DNA of 64,000 nucleotides from Protonemura montana (taxonomy: Eukaryota; Arthropoda; Insecta; Plecoptera; Nemouridae). Positions 33,776 through 64,000 of the stretch are shown here, one piece after another (within the stretch, counting starts at the first letter, position 1; every line of letters begins with the position of its first letter). The notes beneath the pieces were generated by a model that worked only from the letters and a program-made list of their open reading frames with translations, made no database searches and had not been told where the DNA came from. The translations under genes and the position numbers were made by a program. The stretch covers positions 1 through 64,000 of the forward strand of contig OX387604.1 in NCBI GenBank assembly GCA_947568835.1, read 5' to 3'.

Positions 33776-33846
33776 TGCATCGGCTGGGAATCGAACCCGG
33801 GCCGCCCGCGTGGCAGGCGAGCATTCTACCACTGAACCACCGCTGC
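33776..33846 (-). tRNA. tRNA-Gly(GCC)
   Basis: Identical to the 9775 copy: A box, GCC anticodon, intact B box and a following T-run on the minus strand. It has the same acceptor G4-A69 and T-stem C-A mismatches. Confidence 0.78.
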
Positions 33847-48690: not shown

Positions 48691-50331
48691 TGCACGTGCA
48701 AGTGGGGTTTATGCTGCAGGATTTCTTGGACTTGACTGAAATTTTGCAACATTTCCATGGCTGTTTGACCCTGGAAATATACAGGTAAGACGAACTTTCT
48801 GCCCAGGCTCTGACACCAGCCACTGTCTTCGGGACCTATCACCACAAATAATAAAAATAATAATAAGAAGAAGAGAAATAGAGACGACATTTAAATTCTA
48901 GTTCAAAAACGTCTTGAATTGCTTTGAATATTACTTTGGCAAACTTAAGCCACATTTTTGGAAATTGCACGTGCGAGTTTACCTAAGTGCTACATTGCCA
49001 TGCAGCTCGTCGAAGGTGCTGATGAAATGCCCCTTCGCTCGGGAGTATATTGGCAATTGAGATAGGTCGCGACACTGCTATCTTAAAACGCAGCGCATTT
49101 AGCGAGTAATGATACTGTCGGAATTTCTTGTTTGTATCGTACAATTTAACCACCAAACTTCGAGCGGTGCTCACCTTTCCCAAAATGTCTGAAAAATTGG
49201 CCAAAAGTGACAACTCGTCTCGGGTCATTTTATTCAGTTGACGCCAGATCCTTTATTTACCGATTCCGAAAAACGTTTAAAACAGTGTCACAGCCGGACA
49301 GTGCATGGGGCTGCAGGTAAAGCGATGCTTATTGGGAGCCCAATTTTCAATGCAATTTCGTGTACAGGAATGAACCGATGTGCATCGGTGCTTTTCCCGA
49401 CTGATCCCGTTTTTGCTGATATAACAGCTCAATAGAAAGAAAATCTGAGCACATGATGCCTGGGAGGTTTCCTGTGCAATAGTGGAATGAGATGGTTTGG
49501 TCCTTGCTGTTGCTAATTAATTTATTGTGTATTAAATACTTGTAGGTGACACGAACTTGCCACTTAAGTGTCTACACCCTCAGCAATGAGGTATTCCCTG
49601 TATTTTTCGCAAACGTTGGGAATTGGTATAATTTTCCATCTCCTCATTTTATCCGAAATAAACGCTTGTGTGTTGACAGCAGCGCGATCGTATTGTGAGA
49701 CGGTTTGGACATTTTTACATGCCTCTATGCTGTTAGCACTCAGATATTTCGACAAACAATCTGCATGGTAGCTGGCGTTTACCTCAAAGAGGGAACCGAA
49801 TGTCATTCGATTTAAAATTACCCCGTCATTTCTCTCTTTGGTTGCTTTCAATACATTTTCCCTAAGAGACTCCGGATTCATGTCAACGAGAGAAACTTTA
49901 CGTCCTGTCTTGTTTGGTATATGCTCCAGTCAAACTCTGGCATTGTTGAACGCGATACCCGTTTGTTTGGGGGTGGTGTTTCACCTCTGTTTAAGTTAGG
50001 GGACCCGAGCCCACGTTTTTTGCCATGTCAATATTTTTTTTGTTGGTGACGCTCTCTGCAACTTTCTTGCCTTGATGTTTGTAAGGAAAAATTTGATACC
50101 CTTTCTTGCTTGCTTGATTTATTTTTCTTGCAATATCATTGTCTTTTGCTTATTAGACCCTTTTCTGTTATATTAGGAACATTCTCGCTGGTTAGGAACG
50201 CTAACTGAAAAAAATTTCCAATACCTGTGGTGGAAATTATTTTTCTAGATTCTGTTCTGCAAGTGGAGGGTTCGCAGCTATCTCCTGTTTTCTCTGCTAA
50301 GTGAAAATAGTGAATAAAATTAACTGTCATG
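48691..50331 (-). pseudogene. Decayed HALTGCDT-family gene, copy 2
   Basis: Counterpart of 36600-38240: HALSGCD at 49307-49287 and the YHADCL part within 49881-49564. It lies between the two TIRs, so it is the likely former transposon-encoded protein. It runs opposite to the LINE fragment, whose insertion near 48690 probably removed the C-terminal part. Confidence 0.7.
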
Positions 50332-50621
50332 ATAACATGGATCTAGTATGAGGAAGCATGCATTACTACATACCCATACGTATTGCTAGTTATTCCGTTT
50401 TGTAGGCGATCTTTTCACTTGCACAAATAAACAAAATCATTGCTGAGTAACTAGAGAATTAGTGAGTTAACAAGTGAGTTTACGCGCATGTTATTTATCT
50501 TCATGCCATTTGCATTCTTAATATTTGGGAGAATTTTCAGAAATTATCAATAATGTTCGTCATCCTGCTTTGAAAGTGAGTAGGAAACTAACTGGCAAGC
50601 CAGCAAACTAACCCTGCAAGC

Positions 50622-50923
50622 CATCGAAACCCATGTCAAGTGGATATACCTCGACAAATCTGTTCGCAGTCTTCTTGAAAATCATTATCTCGGATTCTGT
50701 AGATCCTCAAACCTCTGCACGTGGTTAAAACAGAGCAAGGTATGGTTGATATTTTCGAATATATAACTTTTTTTTATGTAAAAATCAAGAAACAGACCAA
50801 ATTTACAGACAAAAAACAAAAAGCCTCCAATTTTAGGTAAATAATATGAAATCAAGTGCGGACCTAACGTAGTATCAATGAGCCTGCGCACTCAACGCTA
50901 GTATGCCATTCAAAGCACACTAC
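50622..50923. other. Transposon interior, no gene seen
   Basis: AT-rich sequence between the duplication junction and the right TIR, present once in the window. Confidence 0.4.
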
Positions 50924-51502
50924 GCATGCTATTTACCAGCCAGCCGCACGGCTTATCGGCGCTTGGCAGCGCGCCAAGAGTTACCTCTCGTAGGGCAAAG
51001 CAAAAATCTCAGTTGTTAACTTGACGTGTTCAATAAGTTAGATCTGCGATCTTGTAGACAATGAATTGAGCTCTCTTTACAAACTCGTTTTATAACATTT
51101 GGCCAATATTTGGTCCCGTGGCATTAAGTGAAAAGTGGTATATATTTTTTTTGCGTTTTTTTAGCTATTTTTTGGCTCATATCAAAGGTTAGTAAAAACT
51201 TTTTGATGTTTTTTAAAAACCGTATCGATATAACGTATTAATGCCTAGGCTTCTGCGGAAAATAGACGTTTCTATCTCCAAAAATGACTTACTTATTAAA
51301 CTTTTAAGAAATTTTCATTTTTTAAGAAATTTTGACTTTGGTAATTTTTTTGAATGTCTTCCGATGAAAATTTTTTGTCCGGGTTTATGAAATTAGTTGC
51401 GTCATGGTGTTAGGCACATAATATCAAAATTTCAGCTTTATATAACACCGAATATCCTAACTTCTCTATTTGAAGAGATAGCCGCTCGATATTCCTAGAC
51501 TA
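50924..51502 (-). repeat. Right terminal inverted repeat
   Basis: Inverted match to 47296-47861, with the tip at 51502. It is the only right-hand end in the window because duplication copy 1 ends before it. Confidence 0.9.
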
Positions 51503-51505
51503 CTA

Positions 51506-51850
51506 TGTAGATGCAAGTCTGCACAAGGTAAGCACTTGCGAGTTCCGAGGCACAACTTTACGAGCAGTGAAAATACATATTGCGTACATTCAGGCTGATG
51601 CCAGTGCCCGCTAGCTGGCTAGCTAGCTAGAGCGACCTTGCACTCTTTCATGAGGCAAGAGAGTCTGCACTGGTCTTAGCGCTGTAATCCTCGACTGGCA
51701 TTTTTTAAATTCCCTAATGAATGAGCTGAGATTTATAAACAGCGCGCGATTTCAGAATTTGTAGCAAGAATTATTTGCCTACCAAACTTCAATTCCACAT
51801 TATTATTTTGCTATCATTTTGCCAAGGAGCGGGAACAGTTGGACATGCAT
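51506..51850. mobile_element. Inner part of the TTAA-flanked element
   Basis: About 80% similar to 54534-54880: CACAAGGTAAG, CAGGCTGATGC, CTTTCATGAGGCAAGAGAGTC, GAATGAGCTGAGATTTATAA. In the 54-kb copy this sequence leads straight into exon 1 of the transposase gene. Here similarity fades after GGAGCGGGAACAGTT. Confidence 0.75.
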
Positions 51851-52929
51851 TTCATTCGGGTTCTCCAATAGTAGCGATTGACATTTACTTAGTGCATGCG
51901 CCTTGCCATAAACAACGGATTCAAAGATATAATTGTGCATTTTATCAACGCTGAACTTGTTCCAGTTCCCTTCTTCCGTTACTTCCTATAGCCCTCGAAG
52001 GGACAATAACGGCTGAAAATCTTATATGATGCGAATTTATCTCTATTATGAGTTGTGCTCCACACTCTGTGTACCTAATATACGCAAATTTTAGCGCGTA
52101 CATTTCTTTCGCATGAATAAAAGTTCTTGCGATTGCGTTGAGTGGTCAATAGAGAGATTGGATTTTACTGTATTGTAATGTGCGTAAGATTCTGGACATT
52201 TTCACCAGCGGCATCTCACGAGGTTTTTTTATTCCTCGGTCAAAATTGACTCTGAAGTTCGTTAAAAAAATCGATCATCAGTTATGAGTCGATGCAGTTA
52301 CGATAGTAATTACCAAAGATTTGAAATCAAAAAATCAATTGATTTTAAATGTATAATTTTTGTCTCCAAGAATTTTGTCGAGTATTTTATTGCCTAGCTT
52401 CAATCGCAGAGCAATGAAAACATGAGTCCTGCGATATGAAGGCTTAGCGAATAGCGATGACTCATTTGCAAGAATACGAGAAATCATTATTTTACAGCGC
52501 GCGAACGCACTTGGCGTTCCACATTTCTTGTGCTGGAAAATCGATTGAAATTGATTTGAAATCTGCATATTATCACGAACTCAATGATATCAAGAAAATA
52601 ATGAAACTCCCGATTTAGTAGGTTTTTTGTTGTTGTTGCATTGGTTGGGGAATTACTTGATAAATAATAATTCTTGGAGTGCGATAAGCCTGGTAGTGTT
52701 TACAACATGATATAATTTGCTCCCTGGCTAGACTGAATTCTAGCAGTGGAATGAGAGGTAAGGTGCACGTGGGCAGAAAAGTTCGACCTTTTCAATACTT
52801 CGCGACTGGATAAAACAAGGAGCATGCAAAATGAATATCCTATCGCTTCGAGATTAGTATGGCAACAGCCTGGAGTAGACCCTCGTCCTACACAAGGCAA
52901 CAGCGGAATGGGGATTGGCATGATACCCG
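51851..52929. other. Low-copy region, no gene recognised
   Basis: AT-rich with short open frames only. It is probably the right part of the TTAA-flanked element or old neutral sequence. Confidence 0.4.
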
Positions 52930-52975
52930 TTAAGTAACACAGCGCCGGGTCAGGTGTTGGATGGATCACCATCAT
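52930..52975 (+). repeat. Solitary 5S-rRNA-like unit
   Basis: GTTAAGTAACACAGCGCCGG, then GTCAGGTGTTGGATGG and ATCACCATCATAC: half a 5S-like unit. The LINE sequence begins directly after CATCATAC, so the LINE inserted into a 5S-like repeat. Confidence 0.85.
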
Positions 52976-52976
52976 A

Positions 52977-54106
52977 CGGTGGCCGGAGAAGCAACCCCAA
53001 ATGGATGACGCAGGAAGTAAAAGAAATGTCAACACGCGTGAAAAATGTGTATCAAAAAGTAGAAAACTTGAGATTCAACGAGACCGCATTCCAAGAATAT
53101 AAATTAATGAAAAAGAAGTACGTGCAGTTTTTGAAAAAGGGGAAAAGAAACACCTACGCCCATGAACTAACTACAGCGACAAACAAATCTAAAATAGCTT
53201 GGAGCTTAATAAAAAAGAACCAGAATAAAGAAATAGGTGATCGGCAGGAAGAAATCAACATTGTAGTGGATGGTATAACTGTTACGTCACAAATTGATGT
53301 TGCAAACACCTTCAACGAGTATTTTACCGCAGCCGTTGATAAGTTAATCGAGGGAAGGAGGAAGGAGGAAGGGTCGGTAACTTCTCACATAAAAAGAAGA
53401 ACAAGTGGATATAAAAAGGTAATTTTCCTTGCACCACTACTACCAAAGGAGTTCTATGAAATTATTGCGAAAGTGTCCAAAAAGAACTCCACTGGCCTAG
53501 ATGATGTCCCATGTAATATACTTAAAAATACTGGCACATTTATTATGGAGCCGTTGGTACATGTCATTAATGAATCTTTAGCTCAAGGACGTTTCCCCAA
53601 TGCACTAAAACTTAGTAAACTGATCCCGCTCTACAAGAAAGGGAATAAAATGGAAATTGGGAATTATAGACCAATAGCAATACTCTCAGTGTTCTCCAAA
53701 ATATTTGAGATAACATTCAGCACTAGAGTATTGTCCTTTCTAAATAAATTTGATCTGTTGAATGACTCACAACACGGCTTCCTTAAAAGTAAATCTACTC
53801 AAACCGCAATGACAACACTGTTTACTGACATCATCGAAGCACTAGACAGGAAGGAAAAAACGTTTGGGCTGTTTTATGACTATAGTATGGCCTTCAATTC
53901 CGTAAATCACGAAATACTACTTAATGTGATTGACACATTAGGTATAACAGGAATTGCAAACAACTGGGTGCGTGACTTTTTAAAATACAGGAAACAATAC
54001 GTCGTCATTAGGGGGGGATACGGCCCAGTCATTTCTGAGGAAAAAACTGTAAATGTTGGGGTGACTCAAGGGAGTTCACTGGCCCCGTTACTATTTATAC
54101 TGTTTG
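52977..54106 (+). pseudogene. LINE (CR1/Jockey-like) reverse transcriptase, truncated at both ends
   Basis: An uninterrupted frame of about 375 codons. It shows the linker before the RT domain (rich in Lys, with TTATNKSKIAWSLIKK), then LIPLYKKG, NYRPIAILS, the QHGFLKSKST region, motif A FYDYSMAFNSVNH, and motif B VTQGSSLAPLLF. Motif A keeps the first catalytic Asp but has N in place of the second Asp of the usual KAFD. The frame ends at TTAA (54107-54110), before motif C (the F/YADD box), where the next element starts. The endonuclease domain is missing at the 5' side. An inactive insertion, although free of stops. Confidence 0.92.
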
Positions 54107-54110
54107 TTAA

Positions 54111-54885
54111 GGCCCATCATTCCCGCGGGTAAAATCGTTAAAAATGGGTCTCAAACGGGTATATAGTGTTTGTATTATGTTAATGACAAGGAAAATTAAG
54201 TGCCGGAAAATTGGTGAGTTTTCCGGGCAAATTAAAAATCAAATCCTTTGTACAAGGCAGCACCGCAAAAATATGAGTTAAAGAGTCCGCGATTTTTTTC
54301 CGTAGTGCCTGAACTTGCTTTTCTAAGACAAACAATTTTGGTAGTCACAGCTAAAAAATTGATTGAGATATCAATTTTCAAAAACTCTTTTATTAATCTC
54401 AAAAAGTTCCTGGTTTTAAACAGATCATCAGTTGCACAAAAAGTGATCCATTGAACTAATGAAAAGAATGTCTTAAAGCCTTAAGTATGCAGATTTCAAA
54501 TATGTGTGTTTCATCGCGATCGGTCAAACGATGTAGGTTCTGTGTTGTACAAGGTAAGTGCTTGCGAGGCACTACTTTTTGGGCTCGTCGAACCTGGAAA
54601 CATTGCATATTGCATACATACAGGCTGATGCTAGTGCCCGCTAGCATCCGATGCCAGCTACTTCGAGCGCGACCTTGCACGCTTTCATGAGGCAAGAGAG
54701 TCTGCTAGTGGTCTTATCGCTGTAATCCTCGACTGGAATTTTTTAAATTCCCTATGAATGAGCTGAGATTTATAAACATAGCACGCGATTTCAGAATGTG
54801 TAACAAGTATGATATGCATACCAGACTTCAATTCCTCATTATTATTTTGCCATTATTTTGCGAAGGAGCGGGAGCAGTTAAACGT
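54111..54885 (+). mobile_element. 5' end of TTAA-flanked element upstream of the transposase gene
   Basis: Begins GGCCCATCATTCCCGCGGG after TTAA (54107-54110), and the TTAA falls inside the LINE RT frame. Positions 54111-54533 match 34784-35204, and 54534-54880 match 51506-51850. The join between the two parts is intact here. Exon 1 of the transposase/YqaJ gene starts about 160 bp further on. No matching inverted terminus (CCCGCGGG near GGGCC) is visible downstream of the gene within the window. Confidence 0.7.
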
Positions 54886-55044
54886 GTATGTGTTCAGTAT
54901 GTGCCAACTATTCGTTCATTGAACACTGTATCTTTGGTTGTACCTACTGTTGTCGGTTTCTCGTGAGTTGCGAAAGTGTTCGAGTAAGTTTGCAGCTGCA
55001 GGTAGTTGCAATTTGTGTCCAGTGCAAAGTGAAAAAAGTGATAA

Positions 55045-58000
55045 ATGTTTCCTAAGCGACCTCGTGCAAGGCTAAGCAGACCGCGGAAGCGTACGAAACG
55101 CGCCAGAACTCGCACTCGAATTTCAAGAGAGAAGGCCCTAAAAGTAAAACTCGCAAGAGAACGCGAAGCAAGTTCTTCGAGGGACCGAGAGTCAAACTCA
55201 GATCCAAGGGAGGGTTCATCATTGCCTCTGTAAGTACATACTAAGTATTCTATTGTATACTTAGTATACACACTAAGTGCTATTGAAAATGAACAGTGGA
55301 CAATAGCTATGAAAAAATAAGCACTTAATTGCTTCCGATGTTAGTGCACTAAAATTAATTGATCACAAAAGAGCAATTTCAAATTTAAACAACAAATTTC
55401 AGGAGTATTGGAAGTGGAACTCCTCGCTTGTCACCCGGCCCGATCTTTGATGTTGGAACTGATTCTCCGGACAGCATCACATTGCCAAGGTATGTAATTT
55501 TTATCATGTATCAAAGACAAGAGGCAATGCACGAATGCGCACTTATGCGAAAATAAATGAACTGTACTTTATGCTTCAGAAATTCTTGTACCTTGCGAAT
55601 AGGGTGAGAATCAAATTTTTATTTTGTAATAGGTGCTATCCTTGATTATGAAGGGGGACCAATTCATGTTATGAATACTTAGTCTATTGGAGTCATGAAG
55701 GGAAACTGCGTCACGATATCCGATACACCTGGTAGCTAAATTCAGTAATCCTTGATTTGATATGGACAGAAAAGATGTGTGCAGGAATAGTAATATATTA
55801 ACAAAGTTTTAAAAAGTCGCGCTGTTTCTACACTGTTTACAAAATAATAATTGATTAGAAATAAAAAAGCTTTTTTTAATCATTATTCATATCTAACTGC
55901 TTGGTGTTGGAGACTAGGTATGCAGGTAAAAGGTACGCTCTCTTGAAGTCAATGGCTACAGGCCAATTCACCAAACATTTCACACTGACGTGACCCCCTC
56001 TTGATTGACACCTATTTATGAAGATCTGCAGGCCGGCACTTAGTCAGCAGAACCCGCGATGTAGTACCAACAGTCAACTTTTCAAAGGGGTGGTGTGATC
56101 GCAGCATTCTTATACCCATCTGGACTTTCGGCCAACCTCAAGCTAGGAGCAAAGTTACGGGTACAAAAGTCAAATCGTCAGAAGTGACAAATCTCTAAAC
56201 ATTTCTTATAATTCAGGTACGCCGCGACGTCGCTGTCAAGTACCAGCAGTCAATTATCTGGTATCCATGAATTTGCCACTTCTCCTGACCCAACGATGTG
56301 AGTATAGTGAATTTTCTTTCTTCGACTGGTTTCCGAGATTTGTTACACATAATTGTATTTAATTGATTTAAAAACATGTTACATAACTGTATTCTATAAG
56401 TATCCCAAAATTGAAATTTTGCTCTTCTTCTTGAGTGATTGATTTGTGGTGTTAAACTAAGCGCTTAGCGACCACCGGCTTAACGTCCCTTCCGAAGGAT
56501 GGTACAACGCGAACAACAGGATTCCTCCACAAATCCATACTGTCGAGAGGTTGATAAGCAAGGCGAGTGAAGTTGCTGTACTAACTTTCATCCCTCCAAC
56601 CTCTCTCCCGAACAGAACTGGTCATGTGTATGATGGTCACCCATCCAATACCTGACCCAGCGCAGTGTTGCTTAACTTTCATCCCTCCAACCTCTCTCCC
56701 GAACAGAACTGGTTATGTGTATGATGGCCACCCATCCAATACCTGACCCAGCGCAGTGTTGCTTAACTTTGGTGATATTTTGAGAACCGGTCCACTTTTT
56801 TCCAATGTAGTGGTAATCCACAACCCACGGAAAGCGACTCGCCATCGTGCGACTTGGCAGAGCACTTCCCCGACGAGGAACTGCCAGAGTTGGAATGGGA
56901 GACCCAGCCTGCACGGGAAATAGTCTCCGGCCGGCGATTGGTCAACCTGTCCCATTTGCTGAGGCAAATGAAGTCGTTGGCAGGCCACGGGCTGAAGTGT
57001 ACGGCAGGTGGCTTCCAGCTTGTTGGTGAACGCCGCGATGGTATGATGTCCGCGCTCAATTACGAGTGTTTTTCTTGCGGTCAGAAAAAACCCGTAACCA
57101 CGGACACGAATTCGGATGACATCAATAACTCGTTGGTGTGGGGTGCCGTTTCAATTGGGATCGGTCACCATCAAACCCAAGAGATGTTGGCGGTGCTTGA
57201 GGTGCCAGTAATGACCAAAAAATTGTGGGATAAGCACGAGCAAAATGTCGAAGAGGTAAGTGATTTAACTTTTTCAAAATTGCATTCACTTTCCTGATTT
57301 CCTTGAAAAACTTTTTTTAACAATTAACTATTATAGTTAAGTTTTATAAACTATTTTTATGTTCACTCCCCATACAGACTTGGAAGCAACAGCTCCAAAA
57401 AGACATGCTGGCAAACGGCGCCCAGGAAAAGGCGATTGCTATTGAGAAAGGGCACGTGGAGGACGGCGTCCCTTATATCACGGTAATCGTGGATGGCGGG
57501 TGGGCCAAACGTTCCTACGGACACGCGTACAACGCTTCCTCCGGAGTGGTAAGTGATTGGTTATGTGACATGGTGATGGTCATTCCTCCAGAATATTGTG
57601 CAATCGAAGCTTTAAAATCACTCGTGTAATCGCAGTTGTCATAATCATTTAGGAATTGTATACATATTTCCTACGGGTTGGAATTTAAATAATTTATATT
57701 GCTCGCGGGGTGTGTGAAGAGTTGGTATCATTTCAGCTTTGTCCTTGCATTTTTAAGATCCATTGTTTAGCAGCTCTATGACTTCACCTGTCTAGATTCA
57801 TCGAGGTACCTAGTTCTGTCGAATACGGCATTTTCTTTGAAATCGGTAAAAGATAAACGAGAGGCACGACAAAATTCGTTGTAGGAAAATAGGTTTGATC
57901 CAAAAGGCTCTCTGTGTCAATATACTAGGAGAAAACATGTTAATTTGCTCCAAATTTGAGTGAGGAAACTGTCACTTTACTTTCCTATTGTATATGCACA

Positions 58001-59891
58001 AATCCCTTTTCAGAATCACTCGCCCAAATGATGGAAACTCACGAAAAACAGATAAATAATTATTTGATTTGTCCTCAGGCTTGTATAATAGGCGCAGAAA
58101 CAAATGGCTTGTTATATATGGGAGTATGTAACAAGTACTGTTACCCGTGTGCACGAGCAGCCAAAGTAAAGTCTAAACCAAAAGCACACAAATGCTACAG
58201 GAATTATTCCGGGACGTCCACTGGCATGGAGCAGACTATAGTGGTCGAGGGCTTCAAGACCAGTGAGTCTATGCACGGGGTGCGTTATAAATTTTTGATT
58301 GGTGACGGCGATTCGAGCGTTTACGCTCGAATCCAGAGATCGGTGCCCTACGGCCGTAAAGTAGTGAAATTGGAGTGCGCCAACCATATGGTTCGGTGCT
58401 ACACCAGCAAACTGTACAAAATCAAGGCGGACACCACTATCCCTATATCTGCGCGCAAGGTTTTCACTCGAGAAATTTCTCGCCTCACTAAGGCTGCGAG
58501 AGGCGCTATCACCAGCGCCGGGTCTGAACCGGAGAACGTGGAGCAGCTGCGAAAGGACCTCAGGAATGGTCCTCACCACGTCTTTGGGGACCACTCCAAG
58601 TGCCACATCGCTGCTAAAAGCCCTAGAACCACTAGTCACGAAGGCTGACCGCCTGACCCAAAACGTGACGACGAACCAAGCCGAGCGCTTCATGGGCCTC
58701 GTGGCGTGCGCCACTGGAGGGAAACGCGTGGATCACTCGCGGCGCGGTGGCTACGAGCGGCGATGCACCCTGGCCGGCATCCGCCACATAAAGGGCCCGG
58801 GCTACTTCGCCTCCCCTGTCAAGAAACTCCTCGGCCACAGTCCTGGCGATGTGAGTAAAAAGGTGTTCGCAGCCAGGGCGCGAAATCTCGCTGCACATCA
58901 CAGACGCCAGAAAGCCCGTCGCAGCTTGAGGTACGTGCCAAGGAAGATGGCAGCGTCGTCTTCGGCTGGCCCCGACGCTGACTATGGACCATCTGCCGCC
59001 GAGCCCGACATCAGCGACGACGCCATGGAGAGGGCGAAGAGCGAGATTCTCGATCGGCTCGCTGCGGTGGCCTGCTCAGACGAGAAACGTCACCAGCTGG
59101 AGCGCGGCACCGTCGGACAGGCGGGAAACCCTGCGTGGAGGGATGCCCGACGAGACCTTCTCACGGCGTCAATGTTCGGTGTAATCTGTCACCGACATCC
59201 ATACACACCTTGCCACAATAATGTTATTTCCATCACTAATCCAAAACCAGTGAGGAGTGCGCACGTGGCATACGGAAACATCCACGAGCCAAAGGCCATT
59301 TCCTTTTACGAGGAGGCCTTTGGTGTGAAGGTGTTTCCGTGCGGGCTCTTCGTGGACGAGGAGCACCCCTACCTGGGCGCCAGTCCTGACGGGCTGGACG
59401 GCGACGATACATTGATCGAAGTAAAGACCATTCCATCCATCAACGATCTCTGTATCGAAGGCCGCCCAGTCCTGACCATCAAGGAGGCTGCTAAGAACCG
59501 CAACCTTCGTGTCAAGGTGGACGATGAAGACAACCTGGTCCTGAAGGAAACACACCACTATTTCTTCCAAATTCAGGGCCAGCTTAATATCACAAAGCGG
59601 GAGCATTGCGACCTCGTGGTTTACACAGACCACGATCGACATGTCATCCCGCTGCGTCGAAATCAAAAGTTCTGGGAGGAGAAGATGGTGCCGAATCTGA
59701 GGCAATTCTACTTGGAGTGTGTTCTCCCTGAACTCGCCGATCCGCGGGAAGTAAGGAACTTGCGGGTCAGAGACTCCGCGTTCATCCTTGCTGCCCAAGC
59801 GGAAAGAGCTGCCACAGCAAAGACCAGCAAGGCTACTAAGAGGACGTTGTCCCTCGCGTCCGAAGGGGAACAAAAGAGAAAGAGACCATAA
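55045..59891 (+). CDS. Mutator/Kolobok-like transposase fused to YqaJ nuclease (6 exons, one frameshift)
   Basis: Predicted exons: 55045-55229, 55403-55489, 56217-56297, 56811-57255, 57378-57548 and 58079-59891. Each intron is GT-AG and every junction keeps the frame (phase 2 three times, then phase 0 twice), which strongly supports one gene. The N-terminus is Arg/Lys rich (possible nuclear signal). Residues ~120-430 match the Mutator-like transposase family: GRRLVNL, a CFSC zinc-type pair, IVDGGW (Asp ~305), a Cys-rich KYCYPC/HKC patch, GDGDSS (Asp ~399-401) and ECANH (CxxH). A candidate last acidic residue is the E in TTNQAERF. The C-terminus is a YqaJ exonuclease. Exon 6 changes frame between about 58590 and 58645: one frame stops at 58648 and the other continues. 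About 40-50 residues usual for the family seem missing there, so a small deletion or sequence error is likely. Whether it is a live transposon gene, a relic or domesticated is open. Confidence 0.85.
56580..56770 (-). repeat. 5S-rRNA-like units inside intron 3
   Basis: Two reversed units plus an edge (GGTCACCCATCCAATACCTG, then CAGTGTTGCTTAAC), ending about 40 bp before the exon 4 acceptor at 56810. This is the only 5S-like cluster in the window that lies within a gene. Confidence 0.85.
57549..58078 (+). other. Intron 5 of the transposase/YqaJ gene
   Basis: Donor GTGGTAAGTG at 57546-57555 and acceptor GTCCTCAG ending at 58078. The interior is AT-rich with stops in all frames. Joining its edges gives the family's expected SSGV-ACIIGA transition. 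Confidence 0.8.
59120..59755 (+). other. YqaJ-type exonuclease domain of the fusion protein
   Basis: Domain limits within exon 6. Motifs in order: DLLTASMFG (helix at the domain start), YGNIHEPKA with the usual Glu (about 59272-59298), GASPDG with the metal-binding Asp (about 59376-59393), IEVK, the ExK catalytic pair (59415-59426), and FFQIQGQ (about 59563). All residues expected for an active lambda-exonuclease/YqaJ fold are present. The tail after 59755 is Lys/Arg rich. Confidence 0.9.
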
Positions 59892-60335
59892 GAAGCTGTC
59901 GGAATAAGCTGGACAATGAACTGGAGTTGACCTACGATGGGATGCGTGTGATAAAAAAAAGCGCGCCGAAACTACTACCTCTTTGGTGGTGTGGGAATGT
60001 AGTTGTCAGCGATCAGCTACGCCAGTCGTTTTAGAACTCAAAACAGCAGTATTTTCAAGTAAGCTTTCTGCATTTCTTATAAATAGCTTTAGTATTTTCA
60101 TTCTTTGAAGAATGAAATATATAAATATATAAATTATTATATACGTATAAATTCATTGTCTTTATAAATTGGCATCATATCGCCTAACTGATATTGTGTA
60201 ACTGGGGCTTGCTAGCACACTCAGCAGGCAACCCGCAATCCAAGAGCGGCCAAGTAGGTACATCTGGACCGAGGGCCGTTCAATTCTGGATGTATCTAAA
60301 TAACACCGTGACGAATAGCGCCATATTTTATGAAA
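59892..60335. other. 3' flank of the transposase gene, no gene seen
   Basis: Probable 3' UTR and flank. It contains a short ATATAAATAT repeat near 60115-60150. No clear polyadenylation site could be chosen and no inverted terminus was found. Confidence 0.4.
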
Positions 60336-60339
60336 CTTG

Positions 60340-60545
60340 TACGCCAATACATAGTTGGGGAAGATCGTTTTGAAATCGATCTTTTACAAAGATCAAGATC
60401 GTCGTCAAAAAACAATCGCGATCGAAGATCGCGATCGTTTTTATTTAAGATAAAATTCAAATTCGTCTCAATAAAAGATCAAGTTCATATAAAAGATCGT
60501 TTTCGAAAAAAAATCGTGTGATCTCCGAAAAAAAAACGTGTTTTT
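60340..60545. repeat. GATCG-rich simple sequence
   Basis: Many clustered GATCG and AAAGATC words, including GATCGCGATCG palindromes. It looks like an expanded degenerate short repeat; no coding sense. Confidence 0.7.
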
Positions 60546-60659
60546 TAGCAGCCATAGGTGCTGGTAAATGCAATATTAATATAGAAAAAGTAGGAACATA
60601 ATGCGACGAGGACTATGACTTAAAGTCAAGAATACAAGAAGAAAATTAACAGTCTGTTA

Positions 60660-62565
60660 ATGTTAAACGACCCCAACGGGTCGTGCTAGCTAGACCTCCT
60701 AGAATAGTGTCCGTGAATGCAGCCAACGGACCGTGCTGGCCAGACCTCCTAGAATAGTGTCCGTGAATGCAGCCAACGGACCGTGCTAGCTAGACCTCCT
60801 AGAAACATGTCCGTGAATGCAGCCAACGGACCGTGCTGGCCAGACCTCCTAGAAACATGTCCGTGAATGCAGACAACAGACCGTGCTAGCCAGACCTCCT
60901 AGAATAGTGTCCGTGAATGCAGCCAACGGACCGTGCTGGTCAGGCCTGCTAGAATAGTGTCCGTGAATGCAGCCAACAGACCGTGCTGGCCAGACCTCCT
61001 AGAAACATGTCCGTGAATGCAGCCAACGGATCGTGCTAGCCAGACCTCCTAGAATAGTGTCCGTGAATGCAGCCAACGGACCGTGCTAGCCAGACCTCCT
61101 AGAATAGTGTCCGTGAATGCAGCCAACAGACCGTGCTGGCCAGGCCTCCTAGAATAGTGTCCGTGAATGCAGCCAACAGACCGTGCTAGCCAGACCTCCT
61201 AGAATAGTGTCCGTGAATGCAGCCAACAGACCGCGCTGGCCAGACCTCCTAGAATAGTGTCCGTGAATGCAGCCAACAGACCGTGCTAGCCAGACCTCCT
61301 AGAAACATGTCCGTGAATGCAGCCAACGGACCGTGCTGGCCAGACCTCCTATAATAGTGTCCGTGAATGCAGCCAACAGACCGTGCTGGTCAGGCCTACT
61401 AGAATAGTGTCCGTGAATGCAGCCAACGGACCGTGCTAGCTAGACCTCCTAGAAACATGTCCGTGAATGCAGCCAACGGACCGTGCTGGCCAGACCTCCT
61501 AGAAACATGTCCGTGAATGCAGCCAACAGACCGTGCTGGCCAGACCTCCTAGAATAGTGTCCGTGAATGCAGCCAACAGACCGTGCTAGCCAGACCTCCT
61601 AGAAACATGTCCGTGAATGCAGCCAACGGACAGTGCTGGCCAGACCTCCTAGAAACATGTCCGTGAATGCAGCCAACAGACCGTGCTAGCCAGACCTCCT
61701 AGAAACATGTCCGTGAATGCAGCCAACGGACCGTGCTAGCCAGACCTCCTAAAAACATGTCCGTGAATGCAGCCAACAGACCGTGCTAGCCAGACCTCCT
61801 AAAAACATGTCCGTGAATGCAGCCAACGGACCGTGCTAGCCAGACCTCCTAAAAACATGTCCGTGAATGCAGCCAACAGACCGTGCTAGCCAGACCTCCT
61901 AGAAACATGTCCGTGAATGCAGCCAACGGACCGTGCTGGCCAGACCTCCTAGAAACATGTCCGTGAATGCAGCCAACAGACCGTGCTAGCCAGACCTCCT
62001 AGAAACATCCGTGAATGCAGCCAACGGACCGTGCTAGCTAGACCTCCTAGAAGCATGTCCGTGAATGCAGCCAACGGACCGTGCTAGCCAGACCTCCTAG
62101 AAACATGTCCGTGGATGCAGCCTACGGGCCGTGCTAGCCAGACCTCCTAGAAACATGTCCGTGAATGCAGCCAACGGACCGTGCTAGCCAGACCTCCTAG
62201 AAACATGTCCGTGAATGCAGCCAACAGACCGTGCTAGCCAGACCTCCTAGAAACATGTCCGTGAATGCAGCCAACGGACCGTGCTGGCCAGACCTCCTAG
62301 AAACATGTCCGTGAATGCAGACAACAGACCGTGCTAGCCAAACCTCCTAGAAACATGTCCGTGAATGCAGCCAACGGGCCGTGCTAGCCAGACCTCCTAG
62401 AAACATGTCCGTGGATGCAGCCAACGGGCCGTGCTAGCCAGACCTCCTAGAAACATGTCCGTGGATGCAGCCTACGGGCCGTGCTAGCCAGACTTCCTAG
62501 AAACATGTCCGTGAATGCAGCCAACGGGCCGTGCTAGCCAGACCTCCTAGAAACATCGCCGTGAA
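60660..62565. repeat. 50-bp satellite array, ~38 units
   Basis: The unit is CCGTGAATGCAGCCAACGGA, then CCGTGCTAGCCAGACCTCCT, then AGAATAGTGT or AGAAACATGT. The first type dominates the left part and the second the right part. Between about 61570 and 62000 CAACAGA and CAACGGA units alternate, giving a 100-bp dimer. The array ends at about 62565 in a degraded unit. It is unrelated to the other satellites here. Confidence 0.95.
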
Positions 62566-62985
62566 GAACGCTATAAGGCTGTGCTGGCAGACGTTGACTA
62601 CTGCTGACATGTGAACAAGACAAGATTGCGCTTGATGGCGGTAATTCAATTTGGAAGTAAAAATGACGACCGACAGCCTGGTTAGTGGAAAAAAATATAC
62701 CTATGCTGGCTAGCCAAGTTATTTAATAATTCTTCGAATCGAGCTTCCGACATTTTGAGTAATTGCATTTCGGTTTGCTCAATGCCAACAATAATTCAAG
62801 CACCGTCAGGTATATGTCGCCAGTCTTGATATTTCAAATCTTGCAGATAGAATCTGAATGTTGCCAACAGCAGTAAAATGATGCTTTTGTTGTGGCAAAA
62901 ACCACCCGGCGGCAGCTCGTCTGGTATCAAGGTCTGGGATGGTCGCGGCCCATGGTATAAGGTACCATGGGGACGGGCGATACCA
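62566..62985. other. Spacer with a shared repeat fragment
   Basis: Positions 62636-62704 (GGCGGTAATTCAATTTGG through GTGGAAAAAAATATACC) match 11340-11405 and 20068-20130, so a dispersed fragment is present. Further right, TGCTTTTGTTGTGGCAAAAA near 62882 could encode a CFCCGK zinc-knuckle start of a gag gene, but the frame is broken. Confidence 0.45.
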
Positions 62986-63027
62986 GCCAAAGAGTTCCCC
63001 GCAGAGTGATCAGGCGCAAGGTGGTGA

Positions 63028-63669
63028 TACACCACAGGATTTTTAAACGTGCTCCATATTCGGTCACCCGATGTGGCTTCGGCACGTGTTTTTAGCAATT
63101 GGCGAGTGCAAAGCGTCTCCACCACGCGGGTTCGAGGCGAAATTGTGACAGATAAATATCGGACACCAGTCACATTTCTCGTAGATTCCGGGAGTGAAGT
63201 ATCTCTTATAAGCCAATCAGTTCTAGAGGGTGACATTAAGTATAGGCCGGAAACTTGCACAATTACCTCGGTGACAGGGTAAATGCTGTCAATCTTGGGC
63301 ACAGCCTCCTTGAACGTCGTATTAGGGAAATACGAGTACTTGTATTCGGGTTTCGCAGTGTGCAACGAAGCAATGAAGTTGCTATGTGACGGTATTCTTG
63401 GGAGAGATTTTATGAAATATTTTAAAATGGTATTGGACTTTAATGAAGACATGTTAATCCACAATGATAACTTTGTAAAACTCGGCCATACTTTCCATGG
63501 GGCGTTTGTGTCGTCTGCAGACTGTCGTCCAAATCAACATGAAGTAAATTTTCACAACGTAAGGAACACCATTGTTGGTTCGGCGTCTAGTAGTCAAGAG
63601 GCACGGGAGAAAACGTTGACGGGAAATCAAAGAATTGGATCATTTTCTAAATTAGAAGCCATTTCCTAG
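63028..63669 (+). pseudogene. LTR-retrotransposon (Gypsy-like) aspartic protease fragment
   Basis: One frame carries the protease active site FLVDSGSEVSLIS and, about 60 residues on, DGILGRDFMKYF, the usual second hallmark of retrotransposon proteases. A TAA stop at 63280-63282 splits it without a frameshift. Upstream it is closed by TGA at 63025, and it ends at 63669 with no recognisable reverse transcriptase before the window edge. No LTR was identified. It is a nonfunctional fragment, or the start of an element that continues outside the window. Confidence 0.85.
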
Positions 63670-64000
63670 ACCACACCGAAAACATTTACTTCCGATGACA
63701 TCGTATTGAGCGAGTTGAAAGCAGAGCGATTCGGAACATGGCTTTCATTGTACACGAGAAACTTTAAGGTAGAAAGTATTTTACTGCCAATTACAAAAGC
63801 CCAACAAAGAAAAGCAGCAATCGCTGGCCGGGTATCGGTACTCTAGTAATGTCTATGGCATTTATTAGCAGTTATTTTTCTATCGGTGCCAAGATTGCTT
63901 TACAAATAACGACTTATGAACTCCATGGCTAATTTGTTTGCAAATCTGCTTATCTGTCAGATCCATCATTAATGGAAGTTTAACACCAGGCATTTGTAGT
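63670..64000. other. Possible continuation of the retrotransposon, no clear frame
   Basis: Short open stretches only; nothing recognised. It may be decayed pol sequence after the protease. Confidence 0.35.

Follow-up and report, generated by a model that had tools for sequence, protein, structure and literature searches.

Does the stonefly Protonemura montana encode a transposase that carries its own exonuclease, and is the locus at positions 55045–59891 an intact gene for such a protein? The locus lies in a stretch of 64,000 nucleotides (assembly GCA_947568835.1, contig OX387604.1, positions 1 to 64,000 of the forward strand), which was analysed as a whole and is referred to here as the window. 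An earlier note, made from the sequence alone, had described it as a six-exon fusion of a transposase and a YqaJ nuclease with consistent phases and intact hallmark residues, and as a candidate for an undescribed system. The fusion is genuine at the level of the element family, and the window copy is a broken, defunct transposon copy. We assign the locus with high confidence to the KolobokE type of cut-and-paste DNA transposon, as a defunct copy. This kind of element is already described, and the find is largely ordinary.

All of the motifs named in the earlier note (IVDGGW, GDGDSS, ECANH, TTNQAERF, GNIHEP, SPDG, EVK and QIQGQ) are present where it placed them, and the profile check that it proposed gave matches to both expected Pfam models. 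PF20700 matches three consecutive exon pieces with E-values of 7.4e-20, 1.1e-13 and 5e-48, and PF09588 matches the nuclease part (E 1e-15), all far above chance. The gene model is on the plus strand, and GT/AG borders flank every intron. Exon 1 (55045–55229) encodes a basic N-terminus and has a GT donor and an in-phase join; exons 2 (55403–55489) and 3 (56217–56297) are predicted from AG/GT borders and phase only. Exon 4 (56811–57255), placed by its Pfam match together with splice borders and phase, covers PF20700 positions 1–117. Exon 5 (57378–57548) covers positions 117–176 and includes the first catalytic Asp (IVDGGW, 57492–57494). The full exon 6 spans 58079–59891, of which the last base is the final base of a stop codon. 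Its upstream frame (58079–58648) contains a CCHC finger (58139–58195), GDGDSS (58301–58318) and CxxH (58376–58387), all read by eye, and ends at a TGA stop (58646–58648). The downstream frame (58611–59891), within a 507-amino-acid (aa) open reading frame (ORF) at 58368–59891, encodes TTNQAERF with the catalytic Glu (58683–58685), a linker and the YqaJ domain.

Exons 1–5 and the start of exon 6 can be read through in a single phase, but the phases are not consistent across all six exons as claimed. Joined, they give 2782 nt, which is not a multiple of 3, and the reading contains 11 stops, the first at codon 513 (58646–58648). The catalytic Glu and the YqaJ domain therefore sit in a different frame from the upstream transposase, and the hallmark residues are intact as individual motifs and not as one protein. 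The cause is visible in an alignment to the related copy L030 (contig C13), which matches both sides of window position 58609/58610 and has 103 additional bases in between. The window copy has thus lost about 103 bp at this point, which has shifted the frame and taken away part of the zinc finger that precedes the catalytic Glu. In both L030 and L010 the 103-bp stretch encodes more zinc-finger residues, and in L010 it shares a frame with the catalytic Glu and the YqaJ part; the frame of L030 is itself damaged and L010 is without the upstream part. Among the other family-A matches to the 507-aa query (family A being that of the window copy), none spans the whole query. When residues 1–150 of the joined window model were searched by tblastn against loci L046, L040 and L017, nothing matched at E 1.

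The single frame lost from the window copy is found in two other families of the genome. Family B consists of four copies (two on contig C2, one on C3 and one on C1) that are 99.6–100% identical where aligned. Three of the four encode a sequence-identical ORF of 634 aa comprising PF20700 positions 175–357 followed by YqaJ; in the fourth, L047, about 1.5 kb of internal sequence is deleted, a 382-aa remnant is left and the 5' end has no match. In family C (L017), PF20700 and PF09588 lie in one ORF of 650 aa. The B and C ORFs are 41% identical (253/617 aligned positions), and in both PF09588 is C-terminal to PF20700 within the one ORF. The first transposase part, with the first Asp, is encoded by an upstream exon, which corresponds to a 263-aa frame in family B, and the intron between the exon 5 and exon 6 parts of the window model has the same position in A and B. 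A 931-aa open frame considered for the C3 copy was rejected, as both the ORF listing and direct translation give 263 and 634 aa, as in the C2 copies. The CCHC finger (NKYC..C..H..C) and CxxH are present in A, B and C. The DDE triad, a C/DxxH between the second D and the E, and a zinc finger before the E were recognised by eye in B and C; in the window copy the finger before the E is partly deleted. Downstream of the family-C fusion ORF and in the same orientation, a THAP-domain ORF (E 4.3e-16) was observed on the minus strand of L017 at 137–814.

These ORFs bear on the proposal that the locus represents two adjacent genes, or an ISL2EU-like element with YqaJ as a separate ORF. The two domains are in different frames in the window copy, and in ISL2EU the YqaJ is a second ORF (PMC4482050). 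The window frame break coincides with the deletion, however, both domains share one frame in families B and C, and the target site is TTAA, where ISL2EU uses AT. This proposal is very unlikely.

Family B looks recently active, since its three full-length copies share one and the same 634-aa ORF and have clean TTAA junctions. When its ORF was scanned against viral and bacterial/archaeal contig collections, 1 and 4 pattern matches respectively were obtained and none was confirmed; these scans say little, because the collections cover viruses, bacteria and archaea.

The target site points to the superfamily. At the 5' junction of the window copy, TTAA (54107–54110, plus strand) lies inside a reverse-transcriptase ORF (52924–54132; RVT_1, E 4.9e-17) whose match breaks off mid-domain. 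The end stretch of this ORF occurs ten times, on ten contigs including that of the window. In 9/9 paralogous loci (L070–L078) the same left flank and TTAA are followed directly by other sequence and the element is absent, which shows that the window element inserted at TTAA into an otherwise empty site. The 5' terminus of the element, GGCCCATCATTCCCGCGGG, occupies 54111–54129 (plus strand) and is shared by 5/5 internally deleted relatives (L051–L055). These relatives match window positions 54107–55220 (to 55175 in L055) at 98–99% and run from TTAA plus GGCCCATCATTCCCGCGGG to GGCATGATACGCG plus TTAA, with different outer flanks. The GGCATGATACGCG-type 3' end is tied to family A through L057 and through L049, in which the sequence matching 60347 runs straight into a match to 51889, a position that belongs to this 3' region. 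The full-length family-B copies have TTAA on both sides in 3/3 cases with differing outer flanks. They start with GAGTG and finish with CACTC, and 13/16 of the first bases agree by eye between the two ends. In L047 only the 3' end was located, and TTAA is present there. Element ends were located throughout by comparing copies; a self-comparison of window 50000–64000 for terminal inverted repeats gave nothing useful. For the window copy, TTAA is seen on the 5' side only, and its own 3' side is missing.

TTAA is given as the target of Kolobok as a whole (PMC9587614), and it indicates Kolobok rather than Mutator. The suggestion of a Mutator (MuDR or Mutator-like element, MULE) transposon that acquired a YqaJ nuclease derives from the Pfam name of PF20700, 'Mutator-like transposase', which serves here as a label only. 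The C/DxxH motif also occurs in MuDR, being common to MuDR, Kolobok, hAT, P and Dada (PMC9587614). Opposed to this is the target, which is the 4-bp TTAA both in those complete copies that were examined and at the empty sites of the window insertion, in place of MuDR's long duplications; in addition, no further MULE Pfam model matched at E 0.1. Target duplications of MuDR/Mutator elements are about 8–11 bp. A Mutator identity was rejected on the TTAA target and has only a slight probability.

The nine loci without the insertion argue that this is not a long-conserved locus, and they count against a host gene domesticated from a transposon, in which an unusual splice would bypass the frameshift. 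In favour of domestication, the downstream 507-aa frame does remain open. The zinc finger is partly gone in the window copy, however, and the B and C ORFs are continuous, with no intron, across the site of the window's frame break. Domestication is very unlikely, the least probable of the alternatives, and the locus is best read as a dead KolobokE-type element.

The YqaJ/lambda-exonuclease domain of the window copy is located at 59136–59600 (plus strand; PF09588, E 1e-15). It includes the Glu of GxxxE (59286–59288), the Asp of SPDG (59388–59390), ExK (59418–59426) and QxQ (59568–59576), residues that we take to be catalytic. GxxxE, PDG, ExK and QxQ are retained in families A, B and C. A profile built from five YqaJ sequences matches two Protein Data Bank entries across the YqaJ domain, 3syy (E 2.1e-16) and the lambda exonuclease 1avq (E 5.2e-11), and the motifs align; unlike the proteins described here, both are stand-alone enzymes without a transposase.

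Comparison of copies points to purifying selection on the protein. The ratio of nonsynonymous to synonymous substitution rates (dN/dS, omega) within YqaJ is 0.34 for the window and L011 (119 codons; 6/2000 bootstraps at or above 1) and 0.26 for the window and L019 (145 codons; 0/2000). Over the whole aligned pair it is 0.46 for B and L028 (1/2000) and 0.35 for C and L032 (2/2000). Omega below 1 in these four older pairs implies that selection kept the protein, YqaJ included, while the ancestors of the copies were active, and the nuclease probably matters while the elements are active. The dN/dS comparison proposed in the earlier note was informative for the older pairs and not for the younger ones. 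L027 (50 identical codons) was left out, the bootstrap limits of the young pairs hold undefined values and were not used, and no dN/dS is given for A–B, A–C or B–C because between-family dS is saturated. The outcome that would have spoken against the fusion, disabling mutations in all copies with neutral dN/dS, was not found: the window copy is disabled, three of the B copies retain the 634-aa ORF without damage, and omega is below 1 in the older pairs.

KolobokE was described by Kojima and Bao in 2022 (PMC9587614), and ISL2EU carries YqaJ in a second ORF (PMC4482050, PMC9179366), so the claim of an undescribed system does not stand. Likeness to KolobokE was judged against the published description. 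By their sequences, families B and C appear to fit KolobokE alongside A, except for the 3' terminus of A. The family-B termini (GA..TC) fit the 5'-RR and YY-3' given for Kolobok. The window copy differs from KolobokE in being frameshifted and in missing its 3' end. The available text of PMC9587614 is not explicit that one polypeptide carries both domains. KolobokD likewise combines a Kolobok transposase with an exonuclease, but its nuclease is DEDDh (RNase_T), not YqaJ (PMC9587614), and one such ORF is found in this genome (L068). This ORF of 632 aa (L068:500–2395; C16:241799–243694) contains PF20700, RNase_T and PF25244, 'PML, C-terminal domain' (E 7.9e-12). The domain that this KolobokD-like protein has in common with PML might be a clue to where that part of PML came from. 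Two PF20700 loci, L038 and L039, had no YqaJ match in the genome YqaJ scan. ISL2EU, of the PHIS superfamily, is also a DNA transposon that encodes a YqaJ exonuclease; it differs in its separate YqaJ ORF, its transposase superfamily and its AT target (PMC4482050, PMC9179366). In a clam genome YqaJ domains are expanded, and such elements can fuse with transposases (PMC7826175).

Several observations weigh against this reading of the locus as a KolobokE-type element. The termini of family A (GG..CG) fit 5'-RR, and the 3' end is not the YY-3' given for Kolobok. A, B and C all have a CCHC finger downstream of the first catalytic Asp, but this feature is listed for KolobokP, KolobokD and Kolobok5 as well as for KolobokE (PMC9587614) and so does not single out KolobokE. 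The D sequence (L005) reads SRDG in place of SPDG, and the B-like copy L028 has lost PDG, along with the G of GxxxE. Of the 19 YqaJ matches in the genome, only 6 lie within about 2 kb of a listed PF20700 match, and some of those away from PF20700 could belong to other elements; 10 of the remaining 13 cover only part of the YqaJ profile. The four younger pairs (L010, L013, L020 and C–C2) have whole-pair omega values of 0.49–0.60, for which 1 is not excluded.

The 3' untranslated part of the window copy extends over 59892–60347 (plus strand), where homology to the sister copy L049 stops. Beyond it lie a high-copy repeat (about 60350–60660) and a 50-bp satellite at 60673–62565 (about 38 copies), and no copy of the 3' region was found downstream of 60347 in the window among the best 40 of 111 candidates. 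The same satellite is present in the paralogous L070, starting about 2 kb past the empty site, and for this reason the end of the window element and part of its flank appear to have been lost. The family-A 5' part at 54130–54889 has at least 41 matches including the window, from the best 40 of 944 candidates scored. The long 5'-part matches are 83–99% identical to the window, which suggests that family A was mobilised over a long time.

The surroundings are rich in repeats. Window 51860–54110 is a subtelomeric block, found at 98–99% identity on the window's contig and nine others, ten in all, for the most part close to contig ends. Positions 1–218 are a telomere-like (ACCTA)n array, or TTAGG on the opposite strand, the arthropod-type telomere repeat. 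Between 26636 and 48685, tandem-repeat arrays recur 12,091 bp apart (26636/38727, 27101/39192 and others), which suggests a large tandem duplication. The tRNA matches at 33776 and 45867 are separated by the same distance; Rfam at gathering score gave four tRNA matches in the window. A 91-bp repeat unit at 56582–56770 also forms arrays elsewhere in the window, and its likeness by eye to 5S ribosomal RNA was not borne out, as there was no 5S match in the window at the Rfam gathering score. A short plus-strand ORF at 63028–63279 weakly matches the aspartyl-protease model PF13650 (E 0.0045, which falls short of the cut-off for that model) and is perhaps a long terminal repeat retrotransposon remnant.

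What the nuclease does can be considered from the undamaged relatives, in which one protein combines a DDE transposase, with its CCHC finger, CxxH and second zinc finger before the catalytic Glu, with a C-terminal lambda-exonuclease-like YqaJ nuclease. A transposase with an exonuclease could plausibly process DNA ends, as the earlier note suggested. The transposase would cut the element out and paste it into TTAA, and the tethered nuclease may resect the 5' ends of the donor-site break, so that repair would tend to copy the element back from a sister chromatid. Lambda exonuclease is a 5'–3' enzyme, and donor-break resection is favoured because a lambda-type enzyme would act from 5' ends; it is nonetheless a tentative proposal, possible rather than probable. 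It is less likely that the nuclease trims the cut ends ahead of their joining or fill-in. For Dada elements with a DnaQ-like domain the published proposal is that cleaved 3' ends are processed (PMC3706591), and for KolobokD that DNA intermediates are degraded from their 3' ends (PMC9587614); the function of extra ORFs such as the ISL2EU YqaJ is stated as unknown (PMC4482050). No functional test of a transposase-linked YqaJ was found in the available texts on YqaJ, Kolobok and ISL2EU, with most subscription journals outside the scope of the search.

The Pfam name 'Mutator' for PF20700 also covers Kolobok transposases, which calls for caution in annotation. It is rather doubtful, but conceivable, that a tethered 5'–3' exonuclease lets the element control the repair of its own donor break: after resection the host would copy the element back, which would give this cut-and-paste transposon a built-in copy-number mechanism. 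If true, YqaJ (KolobokE) and DEDDh (KolobokD), both found in this genome, would be parallel solutions by exonuclease recruitment. Family B, with its three full-length copies, would be a usable starting point for studying the role of a transposase-fused nuclease.

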